Below, one piece after another: positions 15,578 through 58,800 of a stretch of 64,000 bases of DNA; positions within the stretch are counted from its first letter, which is position 1, and each line of letters opens with the position of its first letter. This DNA comes from Dysidea avara (taxonomy: Eukaryota > Porifera > Demospongiae > Dictyoceratida > Dysideidae): contig NC_089280.1 in the NCBI RefSeq assembly GCF_963678975.1, positions 31,266,603-31,330,602 of the forward strand. The letters run 5' to 3'. A program made the position numbers and the translations under genes. The notes below the pieces were generated by a model, which was not told where the DNA came from, searched no databases, and saw only the letters and a list, made by a program, of their open reading frames with translations.

Positions 15578-18106
15578 ATGGCATCCCGACTTTCCGTAAC
15601 AGACGTTCTCGATACTCTTCTTGATGATGGATTCAGCAGTGATGAGAGCGACGATAATGAAGGAGAAGAGATATATGCCTACTTGGGCGAGCCTATTCTC
15701 CGTCGAAGCGAATTGGAGGCTGAAGCTGTACTCGAACCAGTGGCAGACGCTTGGGATGCTGCTGACGACCTGAATGAGGACAGAGATGATATTGAAGACA
15801 GGGACAATCCTTCTACTGAAGACATGAACGATGCTACTACTGAAGAGAGGGTTGATGAAGAACAGTTTGATGATGCTTCCAGCGAACAAAGTGAAGCCAT
15901 CAGTAGGACAGGAAGTATTAGTGATCACAATGATAGAGATGAAAGTGTAAGTGATTTCACATAGATATGAATAGGTGACAACTAAGGTATAAATGGTTGA
16001 TGATAAATATGCACTGGTGAAAAGAGATAGAATACATACAAGCATACAAATAGAAAACATACAGACAATAGATAAAAAAATACAAGTTGTGGCTAAGTAA
16101 AATTATTTATGAGTGACTACATAATGCAAATAAATGTTTGTATTCCTCTGCAGCAATCCAGTTCAGAACACCCAAGTTCTCCCAAGCAACGACGACTTGA
16201 TCCTACTGATAGTGACACTTCCGATGATGACTTCATACCAACATCACCTGATCGACCAACCCGTGCCACCACAGCAGCTCGAGGAGCAGCACGTGCACAT
16301 AGACGAGGACGGGGTACAACAAGAGGTGGTGGTGGTGTAGGACCTACTGACAGTGCCAGGCGTGGACGTGGTGTACGTCGCAGTGACAGCAGAGGACGTG
16401 GTCGTGGCAGGGAGCGTAGTTGGAGTAGAACAACTAGTCTTGGTAGAGGACGTGGACGTGGCAGAGGACGTGGTCGTGGTGCTGGTAGGGGACATGGGAC
16501 CATACCTGGTGATGGAAGAGCAGCTGGAGTAACTTTTCTACCTGGAGAGTGGGAGAATATAGAGCCCACACACACTAAATTTAGCTACTCACCAACTGCT
16601 GGTCCAAATGTACGATTTCCACCAAACACAAGGCCAGTTGATTTATTTTATTTGTACTTTACTGATGATGTTTGGGACTTACTGGTCACTGAAACCAATA
16701 GTTATGCTGCTTTGCGGTTTCCCTGTCGGCAATATGCAAGACCATGGAAAGATGTCACCTGTGAAGAAATGAAGGCATTTATTGGAATGCTCATAATGAT
16801 GGGGATCTTACACTTGCCACACCTTGACATGTACTGGCAGGTTGATGAGGAGATCCTGAGTACTCCTGGTATCTCAGAAATAATGAGTAGAGACAAGTTT
16901 CTCCAGATCTACCATTTCCTTCATCTTGCTGATAATAGACAGCAACATCCAGCAGGGCATCCACGACATGACAAACTTTTAAAAGTGAGAAACTTGCTGA
17001 ACTTGGTCACTGCCCAATGTGCTTCCAATTACACACCTCACCAGGCTGTGACTGTAGATGAGGCTATGATTCCTTTCAAGGGTCGTCTCAACTTCAAGCA
17101 ATATATGAAGAACAAGCCTACAAAGTGGGGGATAAAAGTGTTTGTGTTGTGTGATGCAACAAATGGGTACATATACAGAATGCAAATATACACAGGCAAA
17201 AACATGGAGTCAAACCTTGATGTTGGGCTTTGTTCAAGAGTTGTACTGGAACTTATGGATGGACTTGAAGGGCATGAAGTTTACACCGACAATTATTATA
17301 CCAGCCCTCGCCTGTACATGGCCCTGTATGAAGATCAGAACAACGCTTGTGGGACAGCTCGAACAAACAGAACAGGGTTTCCTAAGTCAATAATTAGAAG
17401 GACAAGGGAAGATAGGGGATACTATAATTACCTATCAAATGGTCCACTCCTTGCAGCAGCATGGTATGATCGAAGACTTGTCTATTTTCTATCAACCTTT
17501 CATGACGGGGCATCACATGGAGAGACAGTCCGACGTACTAATCCTGATGGGACATCAAGTGATGTTTCTTGTCCGCCACTGCTACCTGATTATCAGCAGT
17601 ACATGCGAGGGGTGGATCGCAGTGAAGAGCATATAGGATACTATAATGTGGGGAGAAGATCCCACAAGTGGTGGAAAAGAGTTTTTGCTCACCTGATAGA
17701 ATGTGCTCTTTACAATGCTTACATCTTAGAGAGGTACTCCAATCCATCACTGTATGCTGGTTATCCAAGTCGACGAAAGCGAAGTTATCTTAGCTTCCGC
17801 ATTGCAGTAGCCAATCAGCTAATCGGACCTTATCGTTTCCGGCAACGAGCTGGTCGTCAGCGGAGTGGGGAGCATAGTGAAACACGACTGAACTTGAATC
17901 TTGGTCACTGGCCTATACAACAGACAAAGAAACTTGAATGTGTAGTGTGCAACATGACAAGGAACAAGCAACATCTTTCTAGAAGTGAACTGAGGCATGA
18001 AACTCGATTTAAATGTTCTTACTGTAATGTACATTTATGTGTAAGTGATGATAGGGAATGTTTCAAACTTTATCACACAAAGGTAGAATACTGGAACATT
18101 AGCTAG
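15578..18106 (+). CDS. piggyBac-type transposase (two exons)
   Basis: Exon 1 is 15578-15946 and exon 2 is 16154-18106, with phase-0 donor GTAAGT and acceptor CTCTGCAG. The joined product is about 773 residues. The N-terminus is acidic and low complexity (about 1-130), then comes a Gly-Arg repeat region (about 175-275), then the piggyBac-type DDE core. The likely catalytic aspartates lie in VDEAMIPFKGR (about D425), TDNYYTSP (about D502) and GVDRSEEH (about D611). The C-terminus has a cysteine/histidine cluster (ECVVCNMT... FKCSYCNVHLC... CFKLYH), the zinc-binding end typical of the family that helps bind the transposon ends. The ATG at 15578 opens the MASRLS frame. No stop or frameshift is seen. 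Known chemistry of the family is cut-and-paste at TTAA; activity here is inferred. Confidence 0.92.
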
Positions 18107-24639: not shown

Positions 24640-25332
24640 TCAATCCCTACTTCCTTTTATATTTTTAATAGCTAGTTTGTTTACTTTTTATGTCTAGTTA
24701 GCTAGCTATATTATACTCTTTGTTTTCCACATAGTATAAGCAGTTAACTTTTTCCTTCATACGCAATAAGCACCTCTAAAAGTAATTATTGTTTTGTCTT
24801 TTAAAGTTATTATAGCAACTGATAAAGGTTTCAGCTGCATTTCTAATGGCCTAAATGTTGATGATTCAGTAAAACATCACTGTAGAGTCCACCATTACGG
24901 GTGGAACCCTCGCTTTTAGAAGTCTACATACCAAGGTCGATCCACCCCTCAAAGTCATTATTAGCTAGCTACCTCACAAAAAAACTAAACTGGTAAGACT
25001 ACAAAACGATTACCCAGCGTTAATAAATGCTAGAGACGACTCCTTGGCTACTACACCCGTTCACCTTCGTGTTATGCACATGTACAACCATGTGTTTGGG
25101 TTGTGGCGCGTGCCACAACTATTAAGCACCGCAGCTATTAATTATCCTTCCAGAAGAACAAAGAAGCGAATGAATGATGAAAGCAAACAGCATGGTGCAG
25201 TGGACAGAACGTAATCAGAACAACACATTTGTGAATCCGCTGTCATTAAAATGCAAAAAAATACGAAGCCATATGATTTCTTACCAATTCCTACTTATTA
25301 AGTACTATTGTACTTAATGATGTAAGTAAGTC
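24640..25332. other. Gene-free stretch before the hAT element
   Basis: Mostly unique AT-rich sequence. No exon-like segment was recognised. Confidence 0.4.
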
Positions 25333-28105
25333 CAGTGTGCGAAATAACGTCCGGACACCAGACAATTACATCATTTGGCAGGGAATAATTAACTTTGTCC
25401 GGAAAAAATGTCCGACCATGGCAGAAAGGCAGGAAAAAGGAAGTAATAGAAGTGTTACAAGGAAGACGGTGGAAAAATGGATTCGAGAGAATGATAAAAC
25501 ATTAGACACCACCCTATGGCTGAAATTCAACGTTGTTGCTGGGGACCGCGAGCATGTGTCAAAGCTAAAGTGCAGTATCTGTGGTCAGTTCCAAGAGCGG
25601 TTAATATCAATGCGGAACTATAACTCTGCCTTTGTGGAAGGAACAACTAATACCCATGCTTCATCATTCAAGGAACACGCCAGCACGGAAATGCATAAGC
25701 GCGCAATGATTTTATATAAGAAGGAGCACTCAACTAATGTTTGTGACTACGTTCCAATAGCAAGGGCCTTACTTCTACCATCGATGGATGAATTGACTAG
25801 AGCTAGATTGAAGCGAAAGTTTGAAATAGCTTACCTGATAGCAAAGGAGAAGATGTCATTTAAAAAGATGAAGAGTCTTTGTGACCTAGAGGAAAGACAC
25901 GGTGTTGATATAGGAGGAAGCTATCGTAATGACCATGCTTGTGCAACGTTCGTTGAATTCAATGGTGCAGACCTGAGGCACCAGTTGAGGAAGGATATTA
26001 ATAAGGCTAGATTTTTTAGTATCCAGGTAGACAGTAGCACAGACTGTGGAAATAGTGATGAAGAATTGTTTATGGTATTGTTCTTTGATGGATTGTCAGA
26101 AGATGGAAAGGTAATTGTAAGAGACAAGTTTTTTGCTGTACGACAACTCCGCCATGGCACGGGGCAAGGCCTCTATGATTGTTTTAAACAATCTATGGCT
26201 TATTTAGATATCCCACCTGCAGAATGGAAGCAGAAAATTATTGGCTTGGGGTGTGATGGTACTTCTGCAAATATAGGGAGTGGTGGACTGAAGGGCCACC
26301 TTGAAAGAGATGTTCCATGGATTATAGTAAGCTGGTGTCTTGCACATAGATTAGAACTCTCCATCAAAGATGCGTTGAAGACCACATTCTTTGCAACAGT
26401 GGATGAGTTTCTGCTACAAATATATTATATGTGTACGAAAAGTCTCCCAAGAAGTGTGCTGAATTGAAAGAAATAGTGGAGGAGCTTAAACAATGTTTTG
26501 AAGATTGTGAATTGCCACACAAAGGAGGAGCAAGGCCTTTACGAGCTTGTGGCACCAGATTTGTGGCTCACAAGGTGGCTGCTTTATCACGAGTCATTGA
26601 CAGGTTTGGTGCTTACCTTAGCTTTATCACGAGTCATTGACAGGTTTGGTGCTTACCTTAGCCATTTGAAGTCACCGTCAGAAGATCGCGGTGTCAAATC
26701 AGTCGACAAACAGAAGTTGAAAGGTTACATTCTACGTTAGCGTAAATCCAAGGTCTTGCTTGGTTGTGCCTTCTTTCATGATCTGTTAAAGCCAGTGGGA
26801 ATTGTTTGCAAAATTCTTCAAGAGGATGAACTCTGTGTTGTTAGAACAGTTGAGGCCTTTGTAAAGACGAAGAGGTCACTGGATGAAATGAAATTGAAGT
26901 CTGTTGAAAATCTTCCTACAGTTAAGAAAGTCCTCACTCGAATTCAGTCAACAGATGTGGCAAGTATTGTGACTTATCAAGGTGTTAACTTGCATTACCA
27001 CACTCAAGGCCTAGCATTCTTGAAGTCAAACTATCAAAGCTGGTTGGAAGCAGTTGACTCTTGTCTTGTTAGTCGATTGAAGGTGTAAGAGGAGCAGTTG
27101 CTTATTTTAACTCAAGCAGTAATGCTTTTGGCTACCCATGGGTGGGAGCGTGCCAGCACTCCTTCATTTGGTCATGCTACACTGGAGGCAGTGTGTGACT
27201 GGTTTTCTATTCCTCTTGAGAAAGCTGGCATTGACATATCTTTGGTCCAAGAGGAATGGGACGACATGGTGGAATATGGCAAACAGTACTTCAATTTAGT
27301 ACAAGATGACTACAAGGTGGTGTGGTGGAAGGTTTTCAATTGTGTAGATGCCAAACGATGGAGCAATGTTTTAGGAGTAGTGGAATTGTTGTTCTGTCTA
27401 CCTTTGTCCAATGGACACCTCGAAATGGTGTTTTCACAGCTTAAGTTCATAAAGAATGACCGTCGTATTAATCTTACTGAGAACAGGCTTGATCAACTGC
27501 TTCGGATTGATTGTTGTGGTCCACCAATTGATCAGTGGGATCCTTCAAATGCCATTTCAGAATGGTATAAGGACAGAACAAGGAGAGTTACTGCTTCTAC
27601 CAGAGGAATAACATCAAGCAGGGCTGGGAGAGAATCAGATGAAAATGATGATGATAATGAAGAGTTTTCTTTAGCTGCATGGAAATCTTGGCTTCAGATA
27701 AGCAGCAGTGAAGAGTCCGGATCTGAATCAGGTGATGGTTGTGAAACAGAGGACCGTGCATGATGTTGTTATACCGTGTTTGCTGTTATAGCTTATCTGT
27801 AACTCATGTGTAATCAGCATATCACTTATACTAACTCACCAATAGTGTCACTATGTCAATTTAAATTAACTCCATTTTCTCCAGTTAAATGTAACATTGT
27901 CACTGTAAGTTGTTTACATTGTTCATTGTTATAATACTGTAATAATACATAAAACAAAATACAATACACTAACAGATACATACATTAATAAATGCACTGA
28001 TACATTTTAATTTAAATGTCCAGGCAAATTCCTTGGTGTCTGCTCAATTCTCATATTGGCCTGTCACTTTGTCAGTACATGTCTGAAAAGTTATTTCGCA
28101 CACTG
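25333..28105 (+). mobile_element. hAT-type DNA transposon, inactive (2773 bp)
   Basis: The left end CAGTGTGCGAAATAAC is repeated in perfect inverted form at the right end (16 bp, ending at 28105). A 6-bp direct repeat TAAGTC abuts both ends (25327-25332 and 28106-28111). The interior carries a single transposase reading region on the plus strand that is broken four times. The transposase class and ends agree with a hAT element; the 6-bp flanking repeat is shorter than the usual 8 bp. Confidence 0.88.
25418..27763 (+). pseudogene. hAT-family transposase, broken (ZNF862/DUF4371-like)
   Basis: Starts at the ATG at 25418 (MAERQEKGSN). An N-terminal zinc-finger-like region (KLKCSICGQF ... HASTEMHKRA, about residues 48-100) is followed by an RNase-H-like core (FSIQVDSSTDCGN, IIGLGCDGTSANIG, SWCLAHRLELSIKD) and, at the end, the hAT dimerisation stretch (LPLSNGHLEMVFSQLK, about 27400-27450) and an acidic tail. 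Lesions: a frameshift near 26430; a 40-bp tandem duplication (26581-26620 repeated at 26621-26660) that shifts frame again; a TAG at 26738-26740; and a TAA at 27086-27088. The stops sit in otherwise continuous frame. Not functional as it stands. Family placement is from motif recognition. Confidence 0.88.
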
Positions 28106-32888: not shown

Positions 32889-33012
32889 TGAGCCCAACAC
32901 AAGCTAGTAGTAGTAGTGATGGTGGTAGCAGTGTGGTGGGGCCAGTGGTTGGTGTGATAATGGCACTGTTGATCATTATAATCATCATTGTTGTGGTCAT
33001 CGTACTATTGCA
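32889..33012 (+). other. Transmembrane exon of the receptor phosphatase
   Basis: Codes a Ser-rich stalk ([14 protein letters not shown]) and about 24 hydrophobic residues ([20 protein letters not shown]). The next exon supplies QYYKKGN...SKRKSE, a typical positively charged cytoplasmic stop-transfer sequence. This fixes the topology: everything after it is cytosolic. Confidence 0.9.
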
Positions 33013-36000
33013 GTAAGTTAACGTATAACTAGTTCACAGTGCATTACAAGTTTTGTAAATTTAAGGTATTACAAAAAGGGTAACTTAAAATTTATATCAA
33101 AAAGAAAAAGTGAATCTGAAGTGACTACAATGACCAGCATACCAATGAGAGAGAAAGTAGAAAAGAAAATTTCAGAGCCAATGCCAGTAGGGCCCATTCA
33201 GGCAGAGGAATGGCCTATCCAAGATGCCTCCTTTAGTAAGTGCAAGAGTTAAAGTTGTCACTTAAAGTAAACTGCTACTGTCTTTCATGTAGCTATTGGT
33301 ATAGAGTCTGAAGAAGTGAACTCATCAGTTGGTCAACCAACTACACTTCCCATTGGTCTCCCTGATGTCCACAAACCAGAAATCACTTGGATGAAGGATG
33401 GAAGACCAGTTAATCATCCAGTACTCCCAGATGGTTCCCTGTTTATAACAAACACTGACATTAGTGACCAAGGAAAATATACAGTGACTGTAACTAGCCA
33501 TGGAAGTGTTGCCTCTGAGAACATCCATCTTATTGTATGCAATCCTCAGCTGCCTGCAGGTTAGCCTACAATAGATGTACATTAGCTTGTATTGTACTCC
33601 TTGTGTTTGTTATAGACAACACTGGACGAGGAACCATTAAAATGGAGGATTTTGCTGAACATGTGGTTTTATTGAAGGCTGAAGAAAATTCTAAAGTTAC
33701 TGAAGAATTTGAGTCAGTAGTTGTCGATGCACCCTACACTCATCACGCTGCACAATTAGCTCGCAATAAGGCAAAAAATCGCTACAAGAACATAATACCC
33801 TGTAAGTTTCCAATTTAATGATCCTAACTCACAGTAGTTTATACTGTTTTAAGATGACCATTCCCGAGTAGTATTGAATCAGCAGGATGAGCTTGTTGGC
33901 AGTGATTACATTAATGCATCTTTCCTTGATGTAAGCTAGCAATTAGTAAAGATGGACGACAGTTACTGTCATCACTTTAGGGCTATGGGGAGAATAAGGC
34001 ATACATTGCAGCACAAGGTCCACTTGGTTGCACTGTAAATGACTTCTGGAGGATGGTCTGGGAACAAGAAGTCGTCACAATTGTAATGTTGACCAAGTTG
34101 GTGGAAGATGCTAAAGTAAACAGAAAAACATTGCTGTGTAACAATCTCTATATCTTGCTGTTTTGTTGTATAGATCAAATGTCATCAGTATTGGCCCAAC
34201 AAAGGGTTCGACATGTTTGGCGACATAAAAGTGACACTACAGAAAGAGGAACAGTTGGCAAACTATTGTATCCGTCAGTTGTTTGTTGAAAAGGTAAATT
34301 TTTGATTAATAGTTATAGAACCAAACCTGAGTTACATTAGCATAACATTTTATCTATAGGTACCAGGTGTTAAGAAGGACATTCGTGTGGTGAATCAGTT
34401 TCATTTTACTGCTTGGCCTGACCATGGTGTTCCGAAATATGCAACAGCTCTTCTAGAATTTCAGAAAAAAGTTGATAAACATTACAAGCGTAAGAATGCT
34501 AAACCAATGTTAGTTCATTGTAGGTAAGTAAACACTTTCACCAAAAATGCATGCAGTACATAATTGAGTATCTGTTAGTGCTGGTGTTGGGCGTACTGGG
34601 ACATTTATAGCCATTGACAGTGAGATACAACGCGTAAAACGAGAGAGCATTACTGATGTGTACAACTGTATACGGAAGATGAGATTCTGGAGAAAATTCA
34701 TGGTGCAAACACTAGTAAGGCCCAATGTATTCTTGCTGCATTTTAGTAATGTACTTGCTTATGTATAAAGCCACAGTACACCTTTATTCATACTGCTCTG
34801 CTGGAACATATTGCTTGTGGAGATACTTCAATTGCTGCTCCGTTTAACAATGTTCAAGACAAGATTGATGAGTTGTCAGCTGTAAACCCAAAAGCTGGCA
34901 AGACAGGATTTCAAATTCAGTTTGAGGTACACAATTGTTTCATGGTCACTGTTTGTATTGTAGTACATTAGAAACTTGTACGGACTAGTTCCAAAGAAGG
35001 TGATTTTATGTATGTGGCAGCAGTGTCATCTAAAAATAAGGTCAAAAATCGAAGCCAGAAATTATTGCCACGTAAGTGTGTTGATATATTTACCACTGTT
35101 ACTGATTTAGTTCTGTCATTGTGTGTACAGCTGATTCTGCAAGAGTGATTGTACCTCAACCTGATGGAGGCTCTGATTACATAAACTTTTGCTTCATTGA
35201 TGTAAGCACAGATTGATATTTACTGAACATGTCTGATATATATGGAAACACTAGGATTATCGTCAAACTAAAGCATTCTTAGCTGGACCAGGACCCATGC
35301 AAACTACAGCAGCAGATTTTTGGAGAATGATTTGGGAAAAGAAGTCTCATGCAATTGTTATGCTGGGCCAGCTAAAGGAGAATGGAGAAGTAAGTTCAGC
35401 AAATTCCAGCATCTTGATTGTACTGACTAATTTATCACCATATTAGGAATCCTCATTCAAGTATTGGCCCAATGAAAACAAGACTGTGGAATTTGACCAG
35501 TTCTTAGTTGAGACAGCTTCAGAAGATGCATGGGACAAAGATGTAGTTAAACGCACGTTTAAAATAACCAACTCTAAGCAGGTCAGTGTCATGTTGGAGT
35601 TATTTATACTTTCTTACACTGTTGGTTATTGACAGGATGCTACTAGAACCATAACTCAGTTACACTATGTGGAATGGCCTCAGCATTCCTGTCCAAGTAC
35701 ATGCACTCCCATAATTGACCTAATTGAGACAGTGGAGCGTGTCCAACGTAAAACAGGCAATGGACCCATTACTGTGCACTGCAGGTACTGTGTATTTTTG
35801 AAATCTTGTTGTTCATATCATTTTGTGTAGCGATGGTGTTGGACGTGCTGGAACATTCTGTGCACTGATGGTCAGTATTAACCGGTTCAAAGCTGAGCAG
35901 ATGGTGGATGTGTTCCGTACTATCAAGACCATGCGTACTCAGAGACCTGGGATTGTGGCAAATGCTGTAAGCTGTACTGGAGCATGGTGTCTTTATTTGC

Positions 36001-36105
36001 CTTGATATGTTTTAGGACCAGTTTGAGTTTATCCACAAGGGACTAATCACCATGTTGCAACGCTACTCCCCTTATGCTAACTTTACGGATGGAACTGAAG
36101 TTTAA
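32889..36105 (+). CDS. Receptor-type protein tyrosine phosphatase, 3' part (17 exons)
   Basis: Exons: 32889-33012, 33066-33235, 33293-33559, 33616-33801, 33854-33930, 33981-34115, 34174-34293, 34360-34523, 34579-34714, 34771-34926, 34972-35071, 35131-35201, 35255-35389, 35447-35581, 35636-35784, 35831-35966, 36016-36105. All junctions are GT-AG and all phases agree, giving about 783 codons from the membrane to the stop. Order: Ser-rich stalk, transmembrane helix, basic juxtamembrane segment, Ig-like domain, phosphatase D1, phosphatase D2. It would remove phosphate from tyrosines of target proteins at the inner face of the plasma membrane, with D1 as the active domain. The ectodomain and start codon are not identified and must lie upstream of 32.9 kb, perhaps outside the window. 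Introns are short (about 41-86 bp). Confidence 0.93.
33293..33559 (+). other. Ig-like (I-set type) domain exon on the cytoplasmic side
   Basis: A single phase 1-1 exon of 89 codons. Recognisable Ig signature: [11 protein letters not shown] (C strand with the core Trp), [20 protein letters not shown] (E-F strands, D-x-G-x-Y pattern) and SENIHLIV (G strand). The two cysteines that normally join B and F strands are replaced (PIGL in the B strand, YTVTV in the F strand), as in intracellular titin-type Ig domains. It lies between the transmembrane exon and D1. The phase match makes it insertable by exon shuffling from an Ig ectodomain exon. Confidence 0.85.
33616..34926 (+). other. Phosphatase domain D1 (catalytic motifs intact)
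   Basis: In order: [17 protein letters not shown] (pTyr loop), [32 protein letters not shown] (general-acid Asp), [10 protein letters not shown] (catalytic Cys codon at 34519-34521, P-loop split by an intron after HCS), and QTLPQYTFIH (Q-loop). All residues needed for catalysis are present. Confidence 0.95.
34972..36105 (+). other. Phosphatase domain D2 (predicted inactive or weak)
   Basis: Has [35 protein letters not shown] and the P-loop [10 protein letters not shown] with Cys and Arg kept. The general-acid motif WPD reads WPQ (WPQHSCP), and the tyrosine of the KNRY loop is lost. Such changes are typical of the second, regulatory domains of receptor phosphatases. The protein ends 28 residues after DQFEF. 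Confidence 0.9.
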
Positions 36106-43602: not shown

Positions 43603-43872
43603 CTCTTCCCAAGATCACAGATCACCCAACAGGTGGTGATGTACCAATGGGAAGAAGCATCACTCTCATGTGTAGAGCTAGTGGTCTAGGAACACTAGTA
43701 TATTCCTGGGAGAGAAGAAGTTCTGGTAGTAGTTGGACTACTGTTAGCAATGATAACACAACATCATACACTACTGATACAACACTGACTATTGGAGAGT
43801 ACATGTACAGGTGTAATGTGAGCAATGAGGCTGGATCAGTTGTGTCTAATAGTGCTACTGTGAATGTGTATG
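43603..43872 (+). other. Ig exon 1
   Basis: Acceptor TTTTTACAG, donor GTGAGT. Key residues: ITLMCRASG (B), LVYSWERR (C), EYMYRCNVSNEAGS (F). The usual D-x-G before the F strand is replaced by TIGEY. Near-copy of exon 2. Confidence 0.9.
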
Positions 43873-46800
43873 GTGAGTATTGTCTTAACAGGTAAGACAT
43901 GATGACACAAGTGTCCACAGGTCCTCCAGAGATCACAAATCACCCAAAAGGTGGTGATGTACCAATGGGAAGAAGCATCACTCTCATGTGTAGAGCTAGT
44001 GGTCTAGGAAAACTAGTATATTCCTGGGAGAAAAGAAATTCTAGTAGTAGTAGCAGTTGGACTACTATTAGCAATGATAACACAACATTATACACTACTG
44101 ATACAACACTGACTATCGGAGAGTACATGTACAGGTGTAATGTGAGCAATGAGGCTGGATCAGTTGTGTCTAATAATGCTACTGTCACTGTGTGTAGTGG
44201 TACGTACTAAAATCACAGTCTTAGTGTATGCTAGATTGCAAGTAAAAGTGATAATCAACCTTAATACATTGTCTATTTCAGGCCTATTTCCTCACATTAT
44301 CGCTCACCCTACTGATACAAGTGCTGCTGCTCCATTCAGTGGTGTGTTCACATGTTCTGTTACTGGATGTGGTCACCTCAACATCACCTGGTACAGAAGA
44401 GGAGGTTCACTACCTACCAAGTCAGAATCTACTGAAGTATCCTCCCCAACAGTCACAACTAGTACACTTGTCATTCCTAATGTGACCAGTGATGATGTTG
44501 GTAGATATTATTGTCTGGTATGGGCTAATAGTACAGCATCACGGTCAAATGATGTCATACTTAATTTCTCAGGTATGTACATAATTAAGAATACTCTCCC
44601 ATATGGCAGTGTATATTGTAATCTGTACCAAGACAGCCAAATATTTAAAATCCACTTCAAAAAGATTGGCTTTATACTGTAATTAAAGCCGATCTTTACA
44701 ATGACATTGACATTATTGACTGACATTGCAAATCGTGTAAATTGTTACCTAAATGGCTCAAACATCATTGCAGCCATTTCTTTGCCACCACCTGTGATTT
44801 AACAACTTCTTTCACCCTGTAGCATTATAATGGTTCTATTTTGTGTGCCTTGACTGTTTAGCATATTTAAACCAAACTTGGTACCAAAATTGCCTTTGAA
44901 CTCTGCCAAATTTCAAACCAATAAGATAATGAATATAATATTATGTTTATAGAAACTTTTTAAATGTATGAAAAGAAGAGGGATAAAAAGAAGAAAAAGC
45001 AAAAAAAAAATCCCATTTTTAAAAGTTCATACATACATCAGGAATCCCTGGAGCAGTTGTGCTCAAATTTGGTATGCAGACTACTAAAAGTGGAGGGAAT
45101 TTTCGTAGCAAAATCATTTTATTTTGTAAAAGCAGCATGGGGGTATGTATGCATAAAAACCTGTTGTACTCCCTGCTAAGTGGTGTACCAGTTTCTTGGA
45201 CTGTGTGACATACTTTGTGTCTTAATCTGAGCATGTACCCTTAGATGGTTTCTTTATCATTTCAAACAATAAATGTTCCTTGTTAATTGTTCTTATTTGG
45301 CTTTATACCTTTGGCTGAGGTTGCACAAATATGTAGCATTGCAATTTCCTATCTTCTTTATTGTATGTGCTACTGATATCAAGACTCACGGTAGTGAGTC
45401 GCGCGGCCAAGAAACTACAAAGCGCACGCCCAATTAAAAGACGCGCGGCCACTACTGTGAGTTATTTACGTGTAGGGCCGGTTTTGCAATATTAGTCCTA
45501 GATTATGCAACATCTCTCAATAGATTTGTATTGCGTTACGTGATAAAAAAATCTTTAGGAGTAGTCATCATCATAGTTTTCTTGCGACCTCGCTAAAATA
45601 AAAAAGTAACCATCGCAAAATAAAAAATAGGCATATTTCACTTTATTTATCTATCTTATGTTACAACTACTGTCATGTTATACCAGTCAACATAGTCGTG
45701 TTTGTATAGTCCATCTAGCACTGACATTATCCAATCCTGGTTTGCCTATACGCGTATTTTCTTCAATCAAACCTCTAATCCCTACAATAACTTTTAAAGG
45801 CACGACGTGGACACAAACTCTAATGCCTGATAAACAAGTTGTGACAAAGTGCTGAACCGTAAGTTCCCTAGGGATGGCGTTTTAAGCAGAAATCTTTTAA
45901 ATTCCATTTAGTGCCACACCCCATGCGAGCGTTTATAAATCGCCAGTTGTCTTATGGTGTGAAGAACAAAATCACTAGCGAAGGTGCTTTAAGCATACTC
46001 TTCAATTCTCTATTTACATGTAATTTTTAATAGATTAACCACAAAGGCCGATAAGGTGAATACAAAAGGTAACAAGCCTTTAGGGGTTACCACCTCTATG
46101 TAGTGTTTACCATGTAGCTTGTGTTGTGGCTTTCATTAAGTATTATGCACACACAAATGGTGCAACAAAATTTTGTAATGGATTGCTCGAATGTGGTTGG
46201 TGGTGTTGTGGCTCGAATGTGGTTCATGGTTTGCCAGTGACCATGTATGAGTTGGGGTTGTTCCACACAACTTACATAATATTCAAATTTCATGATGGCC
46301 ATGAAAATTTCTTGCCATATGGTAAACATACAACAATGTGTAACAACGTTAATCAACATCACATCAAGACTTGACTAAAAATAGTTCCAGCAATAGTGAT
46401 GATTTCTTGTATGTCAGCATGACGATACTGAGACCTGTAAAAGAATAAGCAGGCACTGAAGTTAACCTTAAATTAAACACTCATGCAACTGACCTGGAAC
46501 ATTGGTCGCAACACCAAAAACACTTGTTTCGATATCTGATGACACAATCCAGCAGGCACTGAATTAAAAGAGAATGTACAAAAAATCAATATGCCGGTCT
46601 GTATCAATAATAGCATGGATAATCAAAATGAACAAAAATTATATCCCAGGCTAAGTGAATGAATAACATAACTGTTGGGTAAGCATGTCAAACCTGAACA
46701 TTAGGACATTAGTCAAACAAAAGTATGCTATCACAACTTGGGTCATAATACAATGTTTGTACCACTGGACTTCACACTGGTTGCCCAAAAATTGTGCCAT

Positions 46801-49800
46801 TCCAGGACAACAGCATAATTATGAAACAAATAGTTACTACAACACAGAAGGCTTACTGTTGTACTGTCTACACTGATATACCATAATTTAAAAACATAAC
46901 AGGTAGGCATTAAATACAATACACTTAACATCTGGGTACTAGGAAAAAATCACTAACATCACAACATGTAAACTGACCTAGAAATTAACACCCTTGATGC
47001 CACTACAGTCTACACTGGATATTTGTTTGAACCCATCAACACTATACCCGATACATCTGAGTAGACTGACCTGCAAATTCACATCACTAGTATACAGTGA
47101 TAATTGATAGCTACAAAAACAACAATTGCAATAATACAATTCTTCTGTACGTCAACTGACCTGAAATTCATGATACTCGATACCGAGACCTGTAAAAGAA
47201 TAAGCAGGCACTGAAGTCAACCTTAAATTAAACACACATGCAAACTGACCTGGAACATCGGTTGCAACACCAAAGACACCTGTTTCGATATCTGACGAAA
47301 CAATCCAGCAGGCACTGAATTAAAAAGAGAATGTGCAAAAAATCAATATGCCAGGCTGTACCAATAAAGGATGGATAATCAAAATGAACTAAAAAAAAAT
47401 ATATCCCATATGCAGGTTAAGTGAGTAACATAACTGTTGGGTAAGCATGTAAACCAGAACATTAGGTCATTGGTCAAACAAAAGTACGCTATCACAAACT
47501 GGTCACTGATAATTGATAACTACAAAAAGAACAATTGCAATAATACAATTCCTCTGAACGTTAACTGACCTGAAATTCATGACACCTGTATCTTTGTTCT
47601 TGCATGGTCTCAACTTACATATGTACCATGATCACATTCAACTGCTAGTGGATAAACCAGTATGACCAGATGGCCTGCAAAAACCAACAAGCAGGTGTTA
47701 AATACAATACACCTAAAGCCTGAAATATGAAAAATATTATATAAGCATTATTCCACACTGATATAGTAATAGATTATAGGACATTGTGGAACTTGCCTAA
47801 ACGTGTAAACTTGAACACGAGGACAACTGCATAATCTGGACACTTGGAATTATCCAATACCTGATGAACAAGTTAGTACTAATGACATTCACTTCAACAT
47901 TTTATCCCAGCTGGGTGAATCTCTTGTAACTGAGTAAAAAGGTGTTTATTTTTCACCTGCAATCAAAGTTCTACATTTCGATCTGTGGTTGAGTGTACAT
48001 AAACTGACCAGGAAAATCAGTATGCCATAGCTGGGGTATGGAAATGGTTCCTTTCCTTCTGTTGTGACATTACTTACAGCTGACTGGTAAATGATCATCG
48101 ATGTCCCCGTGGACCCCAACAATGAGTATATCAATAACTTCACAAGTTGGAATGAATTTCCTTTCAACATGTGGTGGAATGAATTTCCTTTCAGCATCTG
48201 GTGGACAGGTCCATAAACCCTATCGCACAAGCACGGTGAATCAGTGTGTGGCGATGTGACACGTTACACAAACTTCACTCCTCGTTTCGTTAGCATTCAA
48301 GACCGGCATATATCATAGAGTACCTCGATCAGTATTCTTGACTCTTACTTCTTCAAGCGTTGCTCAAGCGATGTAGTTTCTCACGAGGGGTTCGAGTTTC
48401 TCATTAAAGTCGAGCCGATTAAAGTACGTCTCACCATCTAGTTACATTCTTAAACCATTTTTTTTTTCAATTTAAAACCACGTATCACGAGTGTCCGCTT
48501 CAGGTAATTAGGAACTTTCCACGAGATTTCCCCTATATAGATCACGTGTTAGTTGTGAATCCGGTGGATTCTGGTGGTATACATGGTTCAACAATGCGGT
48601 AAGTGTACATGTGCTGTCAATAATTGTTTGTGCACTGCTAAACTAAGCTATTTTTGTGTGATAAGCATGCTTGAGGAAGGGTCTGGGGGACGACACTAAT
48701 GTTTTGACAGCAGTTGATGATGGCCAGGAAAAGAACTGCGAGAAGAACTACTGTGATAGTGTGATAGTAGGGAAAAATTCCCACCCCTATAGCTCTGCCT
48801 AGGGGCATTATCTACAGCTACTGTATTATGTTGCCGATATGTACATCCGGGCCAAGAATAAAGGTGAAAGTGGTAGTAAGGTTCAATCCTATTATTCTGC
48901 TGAACAGGCAAGGGAGTCTGGGACTCTGGAGGCATGCTCCCTCAGGAAAGTATAAGTACTACAACTTTTTTGTTTTAATTGCTTCATCAAGTATAAAAAT
49001 TTCAGTCAAAAGGTGATGATCGAGGCTCTGGTCTTATGCACTGGTTGGAGTGGTTGTATCGATACTGCACTGTGGCAACCTTGAGGGGTTAGTGCTGGCA
49101 TTATCCTTGGAAATACTATTCCATCTCCCCGAGTCTTGATGATTGAGTCCTCCATTCCTTTCTCTGCTGCTCCAATCCTGAAGTTGTGACCACAGTCAAA
49201 AGGTGACAATCGAGGCTCTGGTCTTGCATCTATACTGTACTGCAACACCCTTGAGGGGTTAGTACCGGCATTGTCCATCGCAATACTGTTCCATCTCCCA
49301 TATACAAGTCTTGATGGTTGAGTCCTCTATTCCTTTCTCTGCTGCTCTAATCCTGAAGTTGTGACCAAAATAATAAAAAATGGTTATAACATGATAAATG
49401 ATTATGGTGATAACAATTACAAATGTATTTATAGCTGTGTAGCAACTGTAAACTAATTAGTCACTTGCAAGTTTAATTAGGTGTCTGAAGCATTTAACAT
49501 GCACAGATACGAGATATATTCGTCACATGCAGGCAGTAAAGATAGATTTACTCTAATAGAACAGTCATACTACACCGTAAATTGTGACTGGGCCTGCAAA
49601 AATAGGGCATGTGGGCACATGATTTTTGCATACTTTTTAAAACTTCCATCACTGATAACTTTTTATACCATTATGCTATGGCAATGCAATTTTCAGCTCT
49701 TATGAGGCATTTAAATGGCTTTATATGGAAAGTTACAGAATGAAAATATTCTGTTCCAATACTGAATTACGACCTGTAGTGTGACGGGGTGTAGTATGTG

Positions 49801-52800
49801 CCCACATGTCCTGTTTTCGCAGACCCGGTCACAATTCATACTTCCGAATTTACGGTGTTATGAAACAATCATTATTATGTATGGATTTTACTGACTCTCC
49901 AAGATAATATTCTGCATTAATGTTAATTGCTCATTTCCAAAAAAAAATTACCTTTTAAACCAAATGTAGAGTCTATCACTGACAAAAATGAGTGATATCC
50001 ACCCCAAAAACACCTTCGCTGTAAAAAAGGCGCGCCCAAGAAACTACAAGTACCTGGAACACAATGTAAAAAAACAAAAAGAAAACAGCTCAGCTGAAGT
50101 GAAAAGTAACTGGTAATTTAATGAGCTGATATCTGAAGCGGCCAAGAATACAATTACTAAAGTTTAATCCATACAAGAACACCTTGGCTATAAAACAGGT
50201 GTGTACATGAAAGTAACTGGCAACTGAAATGGCTGATATCTGAAGCGGCCAAGAATGAATGGTCATATACAACTAATTCAAAAATTTAACACTGAACCTT
50301 TATAATTCAGCTGTGTTCTATATTCACTCTTGCTGCATCGTAAAGTAATTTCTTTTAACTCTAATTGGCTGATAATTTGGCCGCCTTTTTTTGCTCTATT
50401 ATATACTGACTATTAAAAAAGGCGGCCAAATTACCAGCCAATTAGAGTTAAAAGAAATTACTTTACGATGCAGCAAGAGTGAATATAGAACACAGCTGAA
50501 TTATAAAGGTTCAGTGTTAAATTTTTGAATTAGTTGTATATGACCATTCATTCTTGGCAGCTTCAGATATCAGCCATTTCAGTTGCCAGTTACTTTCATG
50601 TACACACCTGTTTTATAGCCAAGGTGTTCTTGCATGGATTAAACTTTAGTAATTGTATTCTTGGCCGCTTCAGATATCAGCTCTTTAAGTTACCAGTTAC
50701 TTTTCACTTCAGCTGAGCTGTTTTCTTTTTGTTTTTTTACATTGGGTTCCAGGTACTTATAGTTTCTTGGGCGCGCCTTTTTTACAGCGAAGGTGTTTTT
50801 GGGGTGGATACTATGTACTTGTACAGATTGATAGGTCTCAATTTAGCAAACAAACAAACAAACAGATTCGCACTCTAAGCTTGATTTTGTATGGTTCAAC
50901 TGCTATTCAGCTCAAAAGGCAAAAGCTCTTAGCTATTACCACATCTATGTGATTATAAGCCTTTTCCATAATGCTGTCAGAACAAAAAATGGCGACCTCT
51001 ATTTGGGGACTCTAATGTTTTCAAGTACAGGTGATGTTGGGCGACAAATAAAGATTGATCGTTTGTGTGATCCAGGAAGAAGATATCAAGCTAAAACTAA
51101 CAGGTATGGATATAATGCAGCAGAATAAAATGGTTTAAGAGGGGTTTTGAAGATTACGGCTGATTTTAAAGGTTGAGTAGAAATAACATTCCTTTATATG
51201 CGTTGTAACCATACCTGGTAACTTGGCTTCAATGTCATCCTTTATTAACAATTAAATAGTTCACGAAAAACTTATGGTCATAGGACGCAATACTCGAAAA
51301 TATAAGAGTACCCCAAATAGAAAACTGATGTGATGTCCTTATGGAAAAGGCTTATTGGAGAGGCATATTATAATCATGTGAAGCAGGCAAAGTTTTTCCA
51401 GGCTTTTAAACTATTGCTCTAAATTTAGTTTTTTGTATACCTGCCAGCACAGAATAGTTAGTAAAACTCCTTGGATGCTCTGTAAAAATTAACATAGAGT
51501 AGTTTGACAGTTTATAATGCTGAAACACTACAAAGCAACAAGAAGTGATAAAGTGTTGTGTGAAATTAGCACAATTGTCCAAGTGAGTCTGGAGATACAG
51601 GTAAACCCCATGTGACTGGGTCTGGGAAAACTGGTCTTATTGCCAATGACAGCAGATTTGATTTTTCACCAAGAACACAAATAAAAGCTACATGAATAGC
51701 TATCAAATTTCATAATCAAAATCAGCTACGCTTGAGTGGTCTGCTTTTGCTGGCTGCGTTTCCCAAGCACAGTGCATGGCAACGGTCTGAGGCCCCAATG
51801 GAGCTTTGGCCAGCCTCAGGGGTGTAGCCAGGATTTTTTGAAGGGGGGTTCCAGCACCAGCATTGAGTTACTAGAAGCAGGAGTCTGGGGGCGCAGCCCC
51901 CAGCCACTGAGAGACTTTCAATATTTTAATAAATCAAAACTCAGCAAATTGCTATATTTTATGCAAAAAGTACATTAATTATGATGCATTAAGTGCCCCT
52001 GGGATGAAGGTAGTACTAGATAAAGTCACTTAGTGGAAACAGACAGCATAACATATAGAGACGCATATAGTAATCTGTAAGTGATGGTTATATCTCACTG
52101 TGGTATAGAAGCCATGAATCCACTGATACAAATGACAATCAAAACAATATAACGGCTATACAAATATGCATAGCATGAATTCATTTTGCCTAACACAAGT
52201 GATAAATTACTGGACCGGAGCTCTGTATCTTTAAACACTGCACACCAAAGCTATAGCAGTATAAGGTCATGCTAAGTTTTGCATTTAATGTTGGAATGTC
52301 TGAAAAACTTTATAATATTATGGACAGTATTATGTATTTACATGCATGTTCTATTAGAGTATACCTGACTGCTCTATTAGAGTATATACCTGACTGCTCT
52401 ATTAGAGTATATCGATCTTTTTAACAAGTTTTGAAGAGGGCTAATGTTACCTCTGTAAATCCTTCCCTGAGAGATGAATGTAAGTTTTATCAATTGTTGT
52501 GCTGTGTCATTACACTATATTGCTCACTCATTTTGTCCTGCCACACTAAATGGTGTGTTAGGATCCTGCTTGCAGAAGTCTAAATTTTACAGGGGGGGTT
52601 CCTGAACCCCCCGGAACCCCCCCTCCCTACGCCCCTGAGCCTGGGGATGGCTGTGTGTGGCTGTAAAGCTCTGTGGTGTTGAATAAAGACCTGTGCTGTA
52701 AATGTCCTTTCATTTTAGCCAGTTTTGATACCTGAATGACTCATATCTTGGCTTAATTCATTCATACGCCTTCCTCCATTGGTGAACTACAATACACTGA

Positions 52801-55800
52801 ATACTTAAAACTGGAATTTCTTGACACTTTTAATAAATAGGTGATAAGACTGGTTTTCCCAGACTGGGTCACATATAATGCAGCTGTTAGTTATTCATTA
52901 TAATTCAATTTGTAAGTGATAATTAATAAAGATACGTATGGTGCATAAATTTGATGTGACTTGGTTTATGAAGCGTGTTTAAGCAAACAACTATGTAAGT
53001 ATACAGTGATTTATTGTTTAATGACTTTTCCTATTGAATAAGAGTTTGTTTAGCTCATGTGGATGAATCAGAAAGGTTTAAACATGACTTGTTTACCTAC
53101 ATGTATATACGAGTCCTGATCTAGACTATGCATATGTGCATTCCACACTCCACCTTCTAGTGCATAATTTTGTTAATATAGGTTTGCATCCTAATGCATG
53201 TGTAGTGATTTCTAATCCTTTAATACACCTTCAAACAAGCAATCAAACGTTGTCCATGAAGTGTATACCAGATACTAAAAGTGTTAATTACACTTGGGAG
53301 AAGAAATGCAGTACTCTTCCTTCAAGAGCACAAAGAGTTAACACATCTAATCTGATCATTGTTAACATTAAACCAGAAGACTCTGGAGAGTATCGATGTG
53401 TAATAAGCAACTCTACTGGGAGATTATTTTCTAAATACGAATCAGTTGCTGTGAAAGGTAAAAGTTTTAAAGTACAGTACATATGTATTAATAATGTCTT
53501 GTTAGCAATCTTAAACCTTGCTGTACTATTGTAAAAATAGATTTTCCAATCCTTTGTAATATTATGTATATATGTACATGCATACATATGTGTACATGCA
53601 TACATATGTGACATTTGCTTCAATATGATCAAATTATATAATTATCAGAAATGTTCTGTTCTTAAAGAAATTTTTGAGATGTGTACTGTATTATATGATT
53701 GCTTTACAATTACTAAGAAATGAAGTTTGTGTTTTACTTTATTCTTTAGTAATTCCACCTAAAGTTGTGCGGCAGCCTTTTTCTGTAGTTGCCAACTTTT
53801 CATCAATGATTATATTCAAGTGCAATGGCAAGGGATATGGACAGAAACAAGTGACATGGCATAAAGATGGTTTATTACGATTACCAACTACTGCTGTTAC
53901 AAGTGTATCTGAGTCATCAAATGAAATTATTGGCACACTAAAGGTTTATGAGGTCATTGGACACTACAAAGGATACTATTACTGTAGCATCAGCAATACT
54001 GCTGGAAGAGTAAATTCCATACGTGCATACTTGAACATAACTGGTATGGTTTCTTAATGTGAAACATTTTATTATAAATTTTATTCCAATTTTTAGTGCC
54101 TCGTCCTGAAATTGTAAGGCCCCCACACCGAATCAGTTTGCGACCCGGTAATTCAGCTTTCTTTGAATGTTTAGCTTGGAGCTACAGTGGACTAGTCTAT
54201 GACTGGTACAAGAGAAGTACTAATATTTCCACCAATGCAGTTATCTCACACAATAGATGGTCAGAGGATGGTAGTTGTATTAGTACCATTTACACACTGA
54301 GCATTTCCAATGTACAACTATCAGATGAGGGTTTGTACTGTTGTGTGGCCACCAATGATTATGGGAGTGTGGAGGAGTGTGCTTGGCTGGAAGTAAATAG
54401 TAAGTTAATTGATAGCATTACAAATGTGTAAAAACTTTATTTTATGTTTCCTGTTAAATCACACACTTGTCTGTTGAGTAGCAGTATTGGCTCTCATGGC
54501 TGCACAACACGCTCAGTAGTGCCAGTTCAGAAACAAACCATGAAAATTTCTCATGATGAAACACTATAATGCATGCCAAATTCTTTGAGATACCTGCCTG
54601 TATCATTTTCATGTTTTTCTTGTTCATTGTGCAACACACAAATAGCTTGCACGTGCTTTTCCATTTTACTTTAAACATGAGGAGTTATGCGCTACATATG
54701 TAACATCCACTTTTTGGGTTATAGCATTAGTGAGTTACATATTATTTTTTTTACATTTTTTGTAAAGTAACAGTATAAACTTTGTTTTTATGCCTACTAC
54801 ATGCACAGACACCATTTAGAGAGATTTTATAGAGCTTGGTAACTATAAAGGTACAAATGTTTCTGGGACTACAGGCAATGTGTAGAGAGCTTGGGTACAA
54901 ACGTTTCTTAACTTAAAGTGGAATGAAACTTTGATATAAGATGAAGAAGTTGCAACACAAAGGAAAACAAACTTGTAATAAAAATGTGATTGAGATGTGT
55001 TAATAGGACAGTCACAGCAAGTGGCACAATTGTCTAAAACAAAAAAAAACCAAGACCTTCATAACTAACACCAAAGGTTGTAACTGTTGAACCACTGCTA
55101 TGAATTCAAAAAAAAAAAAACTACCATTGGAATTAACTGCATGAGAAGTTATGCTGTTTTAAGGAGTGGTTGAATGTGTGATGCAAAGCTAACATGATTG
55201 TCTAGTGGTTGTGTTTTGTACTGTGTTTATTGTTGTGTGTGTGCTCTGGTAGGGAAGAATGGATTTTGCTGACTACCATAAAGTTAAACTAAAAATCAAT
55301 CAATCAATCAAGCTGTGTGGCTCCTTAGGTATTTGCCTAGGCTATAGATTATCTATGGATCAAGTCAACATCTGGTCTGGCATTTATTCTGCATTCAACA
55401 GAGTTTTGGTGTTATGTTTCTAGCTGACTCCTAGCTACACAGATTTTTGGTAGCCTTTCTTGCAGATCCCTAGTGGAATAGTTATATACATCATCTATTG
55501 ACCTTTTTGTTTCTTGTCTAGGAGAATATACAATTTCCTTTATGCAAGTAGCTATGATGCTCATTGCTTTAGGTTATGTTAATAACCCTATAATGTATGT
55601 GGGCTGAGTAACTTTTGAGCTGGGCTATTGTGTCAGTTCATATACAATGCTGTTATGATGTTATACTTGCTTATATACAATGTCATATGTTAGTGTAAAA
55701 CCTTGAAAATATTATAACTTAACTGAAACTACTGCAATTATTTTTATAGCTACTGCAAACATTACTTGTCATCCATCATCCAGTATATACAGAGCAATGG

Positions 55801-58800
55801 AAGAGAAATTGAGTGCATTAAAGTGTGAGGCTGAAGGAATGCATCCTATTTCTTACAAGTGGGAGAAGTACCAATCATCCAATGATAGCTGGATAAGACC
55901 TTCTGATAGAGCTGTTAATATCACATCAACTAAACTGATATTTACTGTGATCATGGAAGAGGATGAAGGTATCTATCATTGTGTTGTTACCAATGATGAT
56001 GGAAGTGTGGTGTCTGATAATGCTACCATCACTGTGTATGGTGAGTGTGTAAAGTATTGATACATATACACATTACCTGTAGTCCTGTTCACTATGGCTA
56101 TAGTGTATTACAGTGTATGTTAACTTCATGCTATAGCATGGCACAGGGCATCCCCAGTAGTGTGCTTTTGTGTGATTAACGATCTTTCAGTCCATCAAGA
56201 CTCGTGGTAGTGAGTCTCACAGCTAAGAAAATACAAACCACATACCACAAACAAAACTGTGCAGCTTATTATATCTAGGTATCTACAGTTGTGAAATCTT
56301 CTTGTCATTCAAAAGGGCTTAACTCAAAAGTCTGATTAGTTAATAGAGTATCCATGTCATTATCATGTAATGTTCCAGTTGCATTCATATATGTGGATAT
56401 GCACAAGTGTAGAGTCAGTAATTATGTGCAAAGTGTAGAAATCACAATTTCTTAAGCACCATCAGCCTGTTACTGTTTCAAGTGAATCCTTGCTAAAACC
56501 AATCAGAATTTGCACAAGCTTCAAAAACATTGTCTTTGTTACTACTTAACATTTTTTCAACTATTCAATGTACATACGTAAATCTTTCCTCACTAACAAG
56601 ATACGTTGTTATAATATCGATCCTCTGTGTGCCATTACTCAGCATCCTAGTTCTCTGAAATCAAATAAAAATGTGTGGATGATGTAACATGATGTCTCGT
56701 TTGAAAAATATACATGCCTTTTTGTGACAAAATACTACATATAAAATACTGTAGTGCTGCAGTCACTTACGCATACAACAGTCAGGAAATACTGATAACA
56801 CTTAACTAAATTTTGAGCATAATCTGAAAACATGATTTTGTGTATAGTATACACTTGATTTTTGAGCACTGCTCAAAGTACAATGGTAAAAATTTGAGCA
56901 TAATAGGCAGGGGCTTATGCATTAAAGACTGTGTTGTAATTTATCCAATTGAAAATGCGAAGGAAGTAACTTCTGCACCAAAATTATATTTAACAGCCAA
57001 AGTAATGAATTTTCTTATCTTGTAGATGGCTAGGAGCAGCAAGGGTCATATCTAATTGAAAGGAGGTAAAACAAACTTTAATGTATCTAAAATGGACAGC
57101 TACATAAAGACTGGAGTTAGTGCATGAAACGTGATTTACAAGCATAAAATAGGTGATAACATTTCTTTGGTTGTACTATTTTTCTCTCAAATGTTAATTC
57201 TCTGGTGGAACTTCCCAGGGGTGGAGAACAGTACTCCAAGCTGGGGTGGGTAGTCTAATGGGGTTGCTGTCATTTAGGAAGTATCTAACTGTACCTTAGT
57301 GTGTAAAGTAAGCTAGCATGCAAATTGTAGAGGTGTTTGGGGGTATGACCCCTTAGAAAAATTTGAATTTAAATGCTTTGAGATTTTGTATATTTTAGTG
57401 GTGCATGTATACTTGAATAGGTAAGTATGCTTTAATATGGCAAACACTACTATAGAATACTAGTTAACATCAGTAAAAGAAAAGGCTTCGAAATAGGCCT
57501 GCACGCTTGATTACGCTACGTGTGTTTTAAAATGCAGGCAAATTTGCATAGCAGAACCTACTTCTATTTCCACTGAATGTGCTGGTAGGGTAGTTAGGTG
57601 ACTGCTTCATTTAATAGTTATACCATGGCAATGAGGGATTTGCCTGGTATATATGCCCAAGCCCGAGGGCCGCAAGCCCGAGGGTGTGGGCATATAATAT
57701 ATCAGGCAAATCCCGAGTGGCCATGGTATAAGTAATATATACTACTCTGGTATGCTCACCTAATAGGTGAAGAAAGACAAACCTGCATTCACCACATTGC
57801 TTTTATACAGAGGTTTGCAGACATCGATTGTGGGTTTAAATTGTGGGCACAAAAAAGAAATGATTGTGGGTTTCATTGGTTGTAGTGATACCATTTTAAA
57901 CCAAATAACCACTTTTTGGATGAATAAAGTAACCTAAGGTGCTAAGATAAACACTTAGACATATAGGTTGGGAATGTTTGAGGCATCTTTTCATGCATTT
58001 GAAATGCAGTTGAAATGTATTGTGTAGAAAAACAATTCCCACATTGCTAAGACAATTGTTTAGTGATACCTAGTAACTGAACTATGCAATGCTGACTCAC
58101 TCAATTCATTTTGCTTCACAACAATGCCCCTAACTAAACCATCTTGTTTAACTCAAACCCACAGTGCAAAACTTTAAGCAGCTCTATTCAAACCCACAAT
58201 GCAAAACTTTAAGCAGCTCTATATAAATAATCAAAGGGAACTGATGCTTTGTAACTGCAGTTGTGGTCAGTGCAATGTGTGATATATAGCCCTGTGGTTT
58301 CCTTTGATCTGAGGTGTCAAATGGTATATTAGAGTATCATGACTATCAATACTGGTTTAGATAGAACTTCACTGTTGCATAAACTGTAGGATAAATTCTG
58401 CTATACCAATTAATACGAAGTGATAAGTAAAATAGAATTGCAGCAGTTATGTACTTTAGCTTCTGAACATGGAAGTGAGGGGGCACTGTTCAAAATGGAA
58501 GTGCAGTTGCCTCTTCTACCATACCCCATGTTCTTTGTAATTTCTATACAGTAAACTGTTGTTTTTTTTAAATTAAAAAAAAATTTTAAGTCAAGAAATT
58601 AGTACTGTGGAACATTTTTTTTGTATACAGGACCTCCTACCATCAATTTTATAAGCAATCCTCAACTAACAGTTGAGGGAAACAAGACAAATCTAACATG
58701 TAATGCTACTAATGATGAGGATGCTGTAGATTCTTTAGAAATACTCTGGTACAAAACTAAAGATAAGGTCACAATAACAGGACAACAAGATGTGGCAGGG

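Follow-up and report, generated by a model that had tools for sequence, protein, structure and literature searches.

Receptor protein tyrosine phosphatases of type IIa (the LAR class: PTPRF, PTPRD and PTPRS) carry immunoglobulin (Ig) domains, one membrane helix and two phosphatase domains in tandem, D1 and D2. The Ig domains of these enzymes belong to the ectodomain and are not known to occur between the helix and D1. More generally, Ig domains of receptors are usually taken to be extracellular. Here we examine a gene of Dysidea avara that resembles type IIa phosphatases in all three features, and that encodes an I-set Ig domain between the membrane helix and D1. The gene lies in a stretch of 64,000 nucleotides (C9:31266603-31330602; hereafter the window) within a genome of 550.8 Mb in 108 contigs. 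Type IIa Ig domains are among the profile matches of this window-type Ig.

The I-set fold is also found in the cytosol, in titin, myomesin, obscurin-like-1, palladin and myotilin, which likewise occur among the profile or Foldseek matches. However, the Ig domains of these muscle and cytoskeletal proteins adjoin no phosphatase and belong to no membrane receptor; the similarity is generic to I-set domains, and the receptor phosphatase order of the window gene is shared with none of the proteins named. A receptor phosphatase of the sponge Geodia cydonium was reportedly described by Mueller et al. (Gene 2001, 262:221) under a title that names a catalytic domain, an Ig-related domain and a fibronectin type III (FN3) module; this work might concern the same architecture and be prior art. 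We recognised no description of the order membrane helix, Ig, D1 in the open-licence literature searched, an absence that is weak evidence, and passages of PMC5336234, PMC6208332 and PMC3192720 do not deal with it.

The Ig exon of the window gene

The gene was modelled as 17 exons on the + strand (32889-36105), whose combined reading frame is open over 783 residues, with GT-AG at every junction. The first codon of this reading is split with an upstream exon. The splice model, Pfam and the tools named below assign the exons as follows.

32889..33012, + strand: Ser/Gly/Asp-rich stalk and single transmembrane helix; enters in phase 1, leaves in phase 2 (hydropathy, splice sites)
33066..33235, + strand: basic stop-transfer and juxtamembrane segment; phase 2 to 1 (splice model)
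33293..33559, + strand: I-set Ig domain that lacks the canonical cysteine pair, cytosolic side by topology; 267 nt, phase 1-1 (Pfam, AlphaFold2, Foldseek, VIA-align, paralogues, selection, trees)
33616..33801, + strand: 7 linker residues, N-terminal helical segment of D1 and start of D1 (KNRYKNIIP); phase 1-1 (splice model)
33854-33930, 33981-34115, 34174-34293, 34360-34523, 34579-34714 and 34771-34926, + strand: D1 and the following linker; WPDHG present (splice model, Pfam)
34972-35071, 35131-35201, 35255-35389, 35447-35581, 35636-35784, 35831-35966 and 36016-36105, + strand: D2; WPQHS present (splice model, Pfam)

The encoded order is stalk, membrane helix, basic juxtamembrane segment, Ig, D1 and D2. 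Thirteen exons follow the one at 33616-33801, and the last of them ends in the stop codon TAA at 36103-36105. Pfam detects Y_phosphatase in two stretches of the protein (517.8 bits), which identifies a tandem D1-D2 receptor phosphatase. D1 contains the HCX5R signature and is predicted from its motifs to be active; D2 is degenerate by the same measure and probably inactive. What we call the helical segment of D1 presumably corresponds to the element of that name in known D1 structures. The membrane exon is 90% identical at two further loci (L014 and L015), and the juxtamembrane exon 100% and 95%, respectively.

An earlier note on this DNA had placed the Ig after a transmembrane helix and a basic segment and directly before D1, with matching splice phases on both sides. 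The splice model (phases 2 to 1, 1 to 1 and 1 to 1, all GT-AG) and the hydropathy profile bear out this arrangement. The membrane helix reaches a mean hydropathy of 3.99 in its best 19-residue window, contains all 25 of the most hydrophobic windows and is followed by a basic flank on the cytosolic side, N-terminal to D1. Since this only membrane-like segment found in the window protein lies upstream of both Ig and D1, a protein produced according to the model would have its Ig in the cytosol together with D1. A further membrane helix separating the Ig from D1 would place the Ig outside the cell; we rejected this reading, because the best hydropathy window C-terminal to the helix reaches 1.02 and lies inside D1.

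The window Ig scores 33.2 bits against the Pfam I-set model in the whole protein and 38.4 bits as an isolated exon, above the cut-off of 23.7 bits. At other loci the corresponding scores are 51.4 (L029), 52.5 (L030) and 24.4 bits (L031). The lack of an Ig fold was one of the conditions under which the earlier note would have given up its reading, and the prediction did not refute it: AlphaFold2 predicts an Ig beta-sandwich for the exon, and Foldseek and VIA-align match this model to Ig structures. The last predicted strand ends about 13 residues before the D1 helical segment. The distance from the end of the Ig exon to this segment is six to seven residues in all 11 genes for which it was printed.

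The claim that both disulfide cysteines are gone proved correct. In an alignment of 21 intact Ig copies from this genome (A1), the canonical places are occupied by I20 and V64 in the window Ig. By a simple pattern, the cysteine pair occurs in 0 of the 21 copies, compared to 52 of 57 ectodomain-type Ig domains from the same loci, a count that is possibly inflated because the latter were baited mostly with cysteine-containing Ig domains. At the B-strand place (column 20), 20 of 21 rows have I or V and the remaining row has H, and the F-strand place (column 64) holds V in 20 rows and L in one; in two copies (L028 and L029) a cysteine occupies the column just ahead of the B-strand place. Although the B-F pair is usual in I-set domains, it is not obligatory. 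Hydrophobic residues at both places would fit a domain whose folding in the reducing cytosol needs no disulfide. Thirteen columns are invariant across the 21 sequences.

To quantify constraint, we calculated Nei-Gojobori ratios of nonsynonymous to synonymous substitution (dN/dS) over 17 genes, for pairs within and between subgroups. For the Ig exon the median is 0.21 within subgroups (22 pairs) and 0.27 between them, where dS is defined for 103 of 114 pairs and synonymous sites are almost saturated; the maximum among defined pairs is 0.50. The corresponding medians are 0.12 within and 0.21 between (48 pairs defined) for one D1 exon (D1a), and 0.16 within and 0.13 between (77 pairs defined) for another (D1c), of which the L011 copy has an in-frame stop. 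Pairs of almost identical sequence give ratios of up to 1.10 and 2.61 for the D1 exons. As far as sequence goes, these values establish that the Ig is kept under purifying selection. We rejected a chance match or an untranslated exon on the basis of the Ig ratios and of a control in which 0 of 7640 residue-shuffled open reading frames gave a hit to the family profile at E<=10.

Paralogues and origin

With the window Ig as a tblastn query we found matches in 20 genes (the window gene, L002, L009-L011, L013-L026 and L028). A profile of these 20, which match it by construction, added L030, L031, L032 and L033 and identified L029 as the remainder of the L002 gene. The resulting 24 genes all score at least 60 bits against the family profile and are spread over five contigs (C1, C2, C5, C9 and C11). 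Every one has a D1 match downstream on the same strand, and none shows another domain at the Ig place. In 23 of the 24 the Ig is preceded by a strong hydrophobic helix, scored by position rather than by a splice model for each gene; L023 has none within its stretch. This recurrence agrees with the reading of the window helix as the membrane anchor, as the earlier note had it.

These genes come from stretches sampled at phosphatase matches (20 on C9, six on C1, C2, C5 and C11 that were selected after a first hint in L002, and four spanning the gap upstream of the window), and their number describes this sample rather than all receptor phosphatases of the genome. Four stretches (L001, L006, L007 and L008) cover the vicinity of the phosphatase match only and are uninformative on the membrane side, and three overlap others: L003 the gene of L030, L004 L015 and L005 L014. 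A search of the whole genome with a single 82-residue Ig copy, a query that misses divergent copies such as that of L027, gave 29 matches at E<=0.01. By comparison by eye with the phosphatase matches listed, 26 of these have one on their own strand no more than 1.4 kb downstream; two of the 26 (C5:4133313 and C5:3875056) are additional to the genes read. Three matches (C9:33509050, C9:33851770 and C9:31478702) have no phosphatase partner among the matches listed.

In a 25th gene, L027 (L027:1486-2760, C9:25.79 Mb), the helix is followed by a divergent Ig, whose coding sequence an intron interrupts, and then by D1. Its joined Ig exons score 62.7 bits as I-set and match A1 by profile comparison with a probability of 94.8 (E 5e-8); the F-strand cysteine is present and the B-strand cysteine absent. 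L027 may have branched off early within this architecture.

A tree of 78 Ig domains, built over only 91 columns, unites the 21 cytosolic-type copies in a single clade with support of 100/100, set off by a long branch. When L027 is included, the 21 together with L027 have support of 94/87, and we favour kinship of this Ig with the 21 on the strength of the tree. The simplest reading is a single gain of the Ig that preceded the spread of the subfamily to C1, C2, C5, C9 and C11. The earlier note had suggested a shuffled ectodomain exon of the window gene itself. The phases fit shuffling: the Ig exon reads 1-1 by eye in each subgroup (the donor site in L030 is unsure), which is compatible with exon shuffling and no proof of it. 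An origin within the window gene is too narrow, since the Ig is common to genes on five contigs whose copies group together, and no donor was traced. A scan of bacterial and archaeal contigs for a microbial source, with one conserved peptide pattern, returned 10 stretches and no relative, which is a weak test.

Possible roles of the Ig domain beside D1

We think it probable that the Ig is a regulatory module beside D1 in a subfamily of receptor phosphatases; the domain order is the sure part of this account and the mechanism the unsure part. A member of the subfamily comprises a membrane helix, a basic juxtamembrane segment, an I-set Ig, a D1 that appears active by motif and a D2 that appears degenerate. 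The Ig could set the place of D1 near the membrane, and its surface might provide Ig-Ig or Ig-partner contacts that cluster receptors or deliver substrates to D1. We infer the cytosolic side from topology; the gating or docking role is a proposal.

Several observations weigh against this account. The clade support of the 21 copies falls to 86/84 once L027 is included. The Ig exon is broken in three genes (L020, L032 and L033), could be skipped in frame owing to its 1-1 phases, and is somewhat less constrained than D1. The invariant residues look mostly like core residues and pick out no binding surface. The roughly 13 residues between the last strand and the D1 helical segment leave room for a flexible joint, which weakens a rigid reading. 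Finally, L034 of the same genome shares the helix and the phosphatase domains, but the stretch from its helix to D1 scores at best 0.6 bits with the profile and contains no detectable Ig, so the domain is not required in every receptor phosphatase.

The alternatives overlap in part with the favoured account, and their probabilities do not add up to one with it. The strongest, on which we would place rather less than an even bet, is that the Ig docks a cytosolic or cytoskeletal protein in the way of titin, myomesin and obscurin-like-1 Ig domains, recruiting substrates or anchoring the receptor, with any effect on D1 being secondary. Selection on the domain agrees with this idea, as do Foldseek neighbours such as the cytosolic Ig complexes 5fm5 (myomesin:obscurin-like-1) and 2wwm (titin M10:obscurin-like-1) and the palladin and myotilin Ig domains. 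However, cell-surface Ig domains (Robo, FGFR, Sidekick) score equally well or better in the same searches, which makes these neighbours unspecific.

A passive spacer that lifts D1 off the membrane, for which any small rigid domain would be equivalent, is unlikely. It would account for the presence of one domain with a linker of similar length in each of the 11 genes printed, and for the fact that L034 manages without the Ig, but not for the 13 invariant columns or the low dN/dS medians (0.21-0.27), and no substitute domain is seen at the Ig place in 24 genes. We are equally doubtful of a splicing switch that produces receptors with and without the Ig. Skipping this 267-nt exon would be frame-neutral, as both neighbours are in phase 1; but Ig exons are usually symmetric in phase, such symmetry proves nothing, and the splice sites are ordinary. 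It is very improbable that the Ig is a neutral relic of exon shuffling or remains untranslated: three of 24 copies are broken, but 21 are open, dN/dS is at most 0.50 where defined, and no shuffled frame matches the profile.

Returning to the favoured account of a regulatory Ig beside D1, an Ig inside the cell next to an enzyme, in a large family under selection, is an unusual placement. It would represent a natural case of an Ig moved to a reducing compartment with loss of its disulfide, and it offers a testable handle on how the region between membrane and D1 gates receptor phosphatases, in an animal whose lineage probably branched early. Just short of an even chance, in our estimate, is the broader proposal of an undescribed class of receptor phosphatases, in which an inner-side Ig was gained once, lost its disulfide, became fixed beside D1 and spread by duplication to at least 26 genes with varied Ig/FN3 ectodomains, L027 being an early branch caught halfway. 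If true, such receptors would have variable outsides and one common Ig-gated phosphatase inside.

Ectodomain exons and neighbouring sequence

The earlier note also referred to nearby ectodomain Ig exons. Such exons are present, since eight cysteine-containing Ig matches lie on the + strand at window 43605-58947 (43.6-58.9 kb), but they are downstream of the stop codon of the window gene and do not appear to belong to it. These eight probably supply the ectodomain of the following receptor phosphatase (L015), which is situated about 110 kb further on. Window 1-32888 yielded no ectodomain exon. Near-copies of the eight occur outside the window at C9:31,233-31,242 kb, and these paralogous Ig domains are likely the ectodomain of the window gene, although unlinked to its membrane exon. 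The likeliest arrangement places every ectodomain tens of kilobases ahead of the membrane exon to which it belongs. At L016, Ig, FN3 and membrane exons fall within 5 kb, with Ig and FN3 before the helix. A conserved extracellular membrane-proximal region at this locus (L016:4258-4785), also found in L009, L017-L021 and L028, resembles what we take to be the last FN3-like unit of receptor phosphatases; it has no match in the window at E<=1.

Phosphatase matches form arrays at C9:30.7-34.4 Mb, which includes the window (31.27-31.33 Mb), and at C5:2.6-7.0 Mb, and the genome contains at least 184 PF00102 matches, counted per exon. One decayed paralogue (L012, C9:30974500-30984400) has retained D2 and part of D1; the Ig and the front D1 exons were not found there.

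Similarity of the window to L014 and L015 ends at window 32767, some 120 bases ahead of the membrane exon, whereas L014 and L015 still match each other further upstream; this break is probably an insertion or rearrangement in the window copy. An open frame of 669 residues at window 16097-18103 encodes a transposase (DDE_Tnp_1_7, 314 bits in Pfam), presumably of the piggyBac type, and lies probably inside an intron because it is upstream of the membrane exon. Several open frames at window 25277-27760 also look, to our eye, like transposases; Pfam reports nothing in 27089-27760 and, in the first frame, only a weak zinc-finger match below the cut-off.
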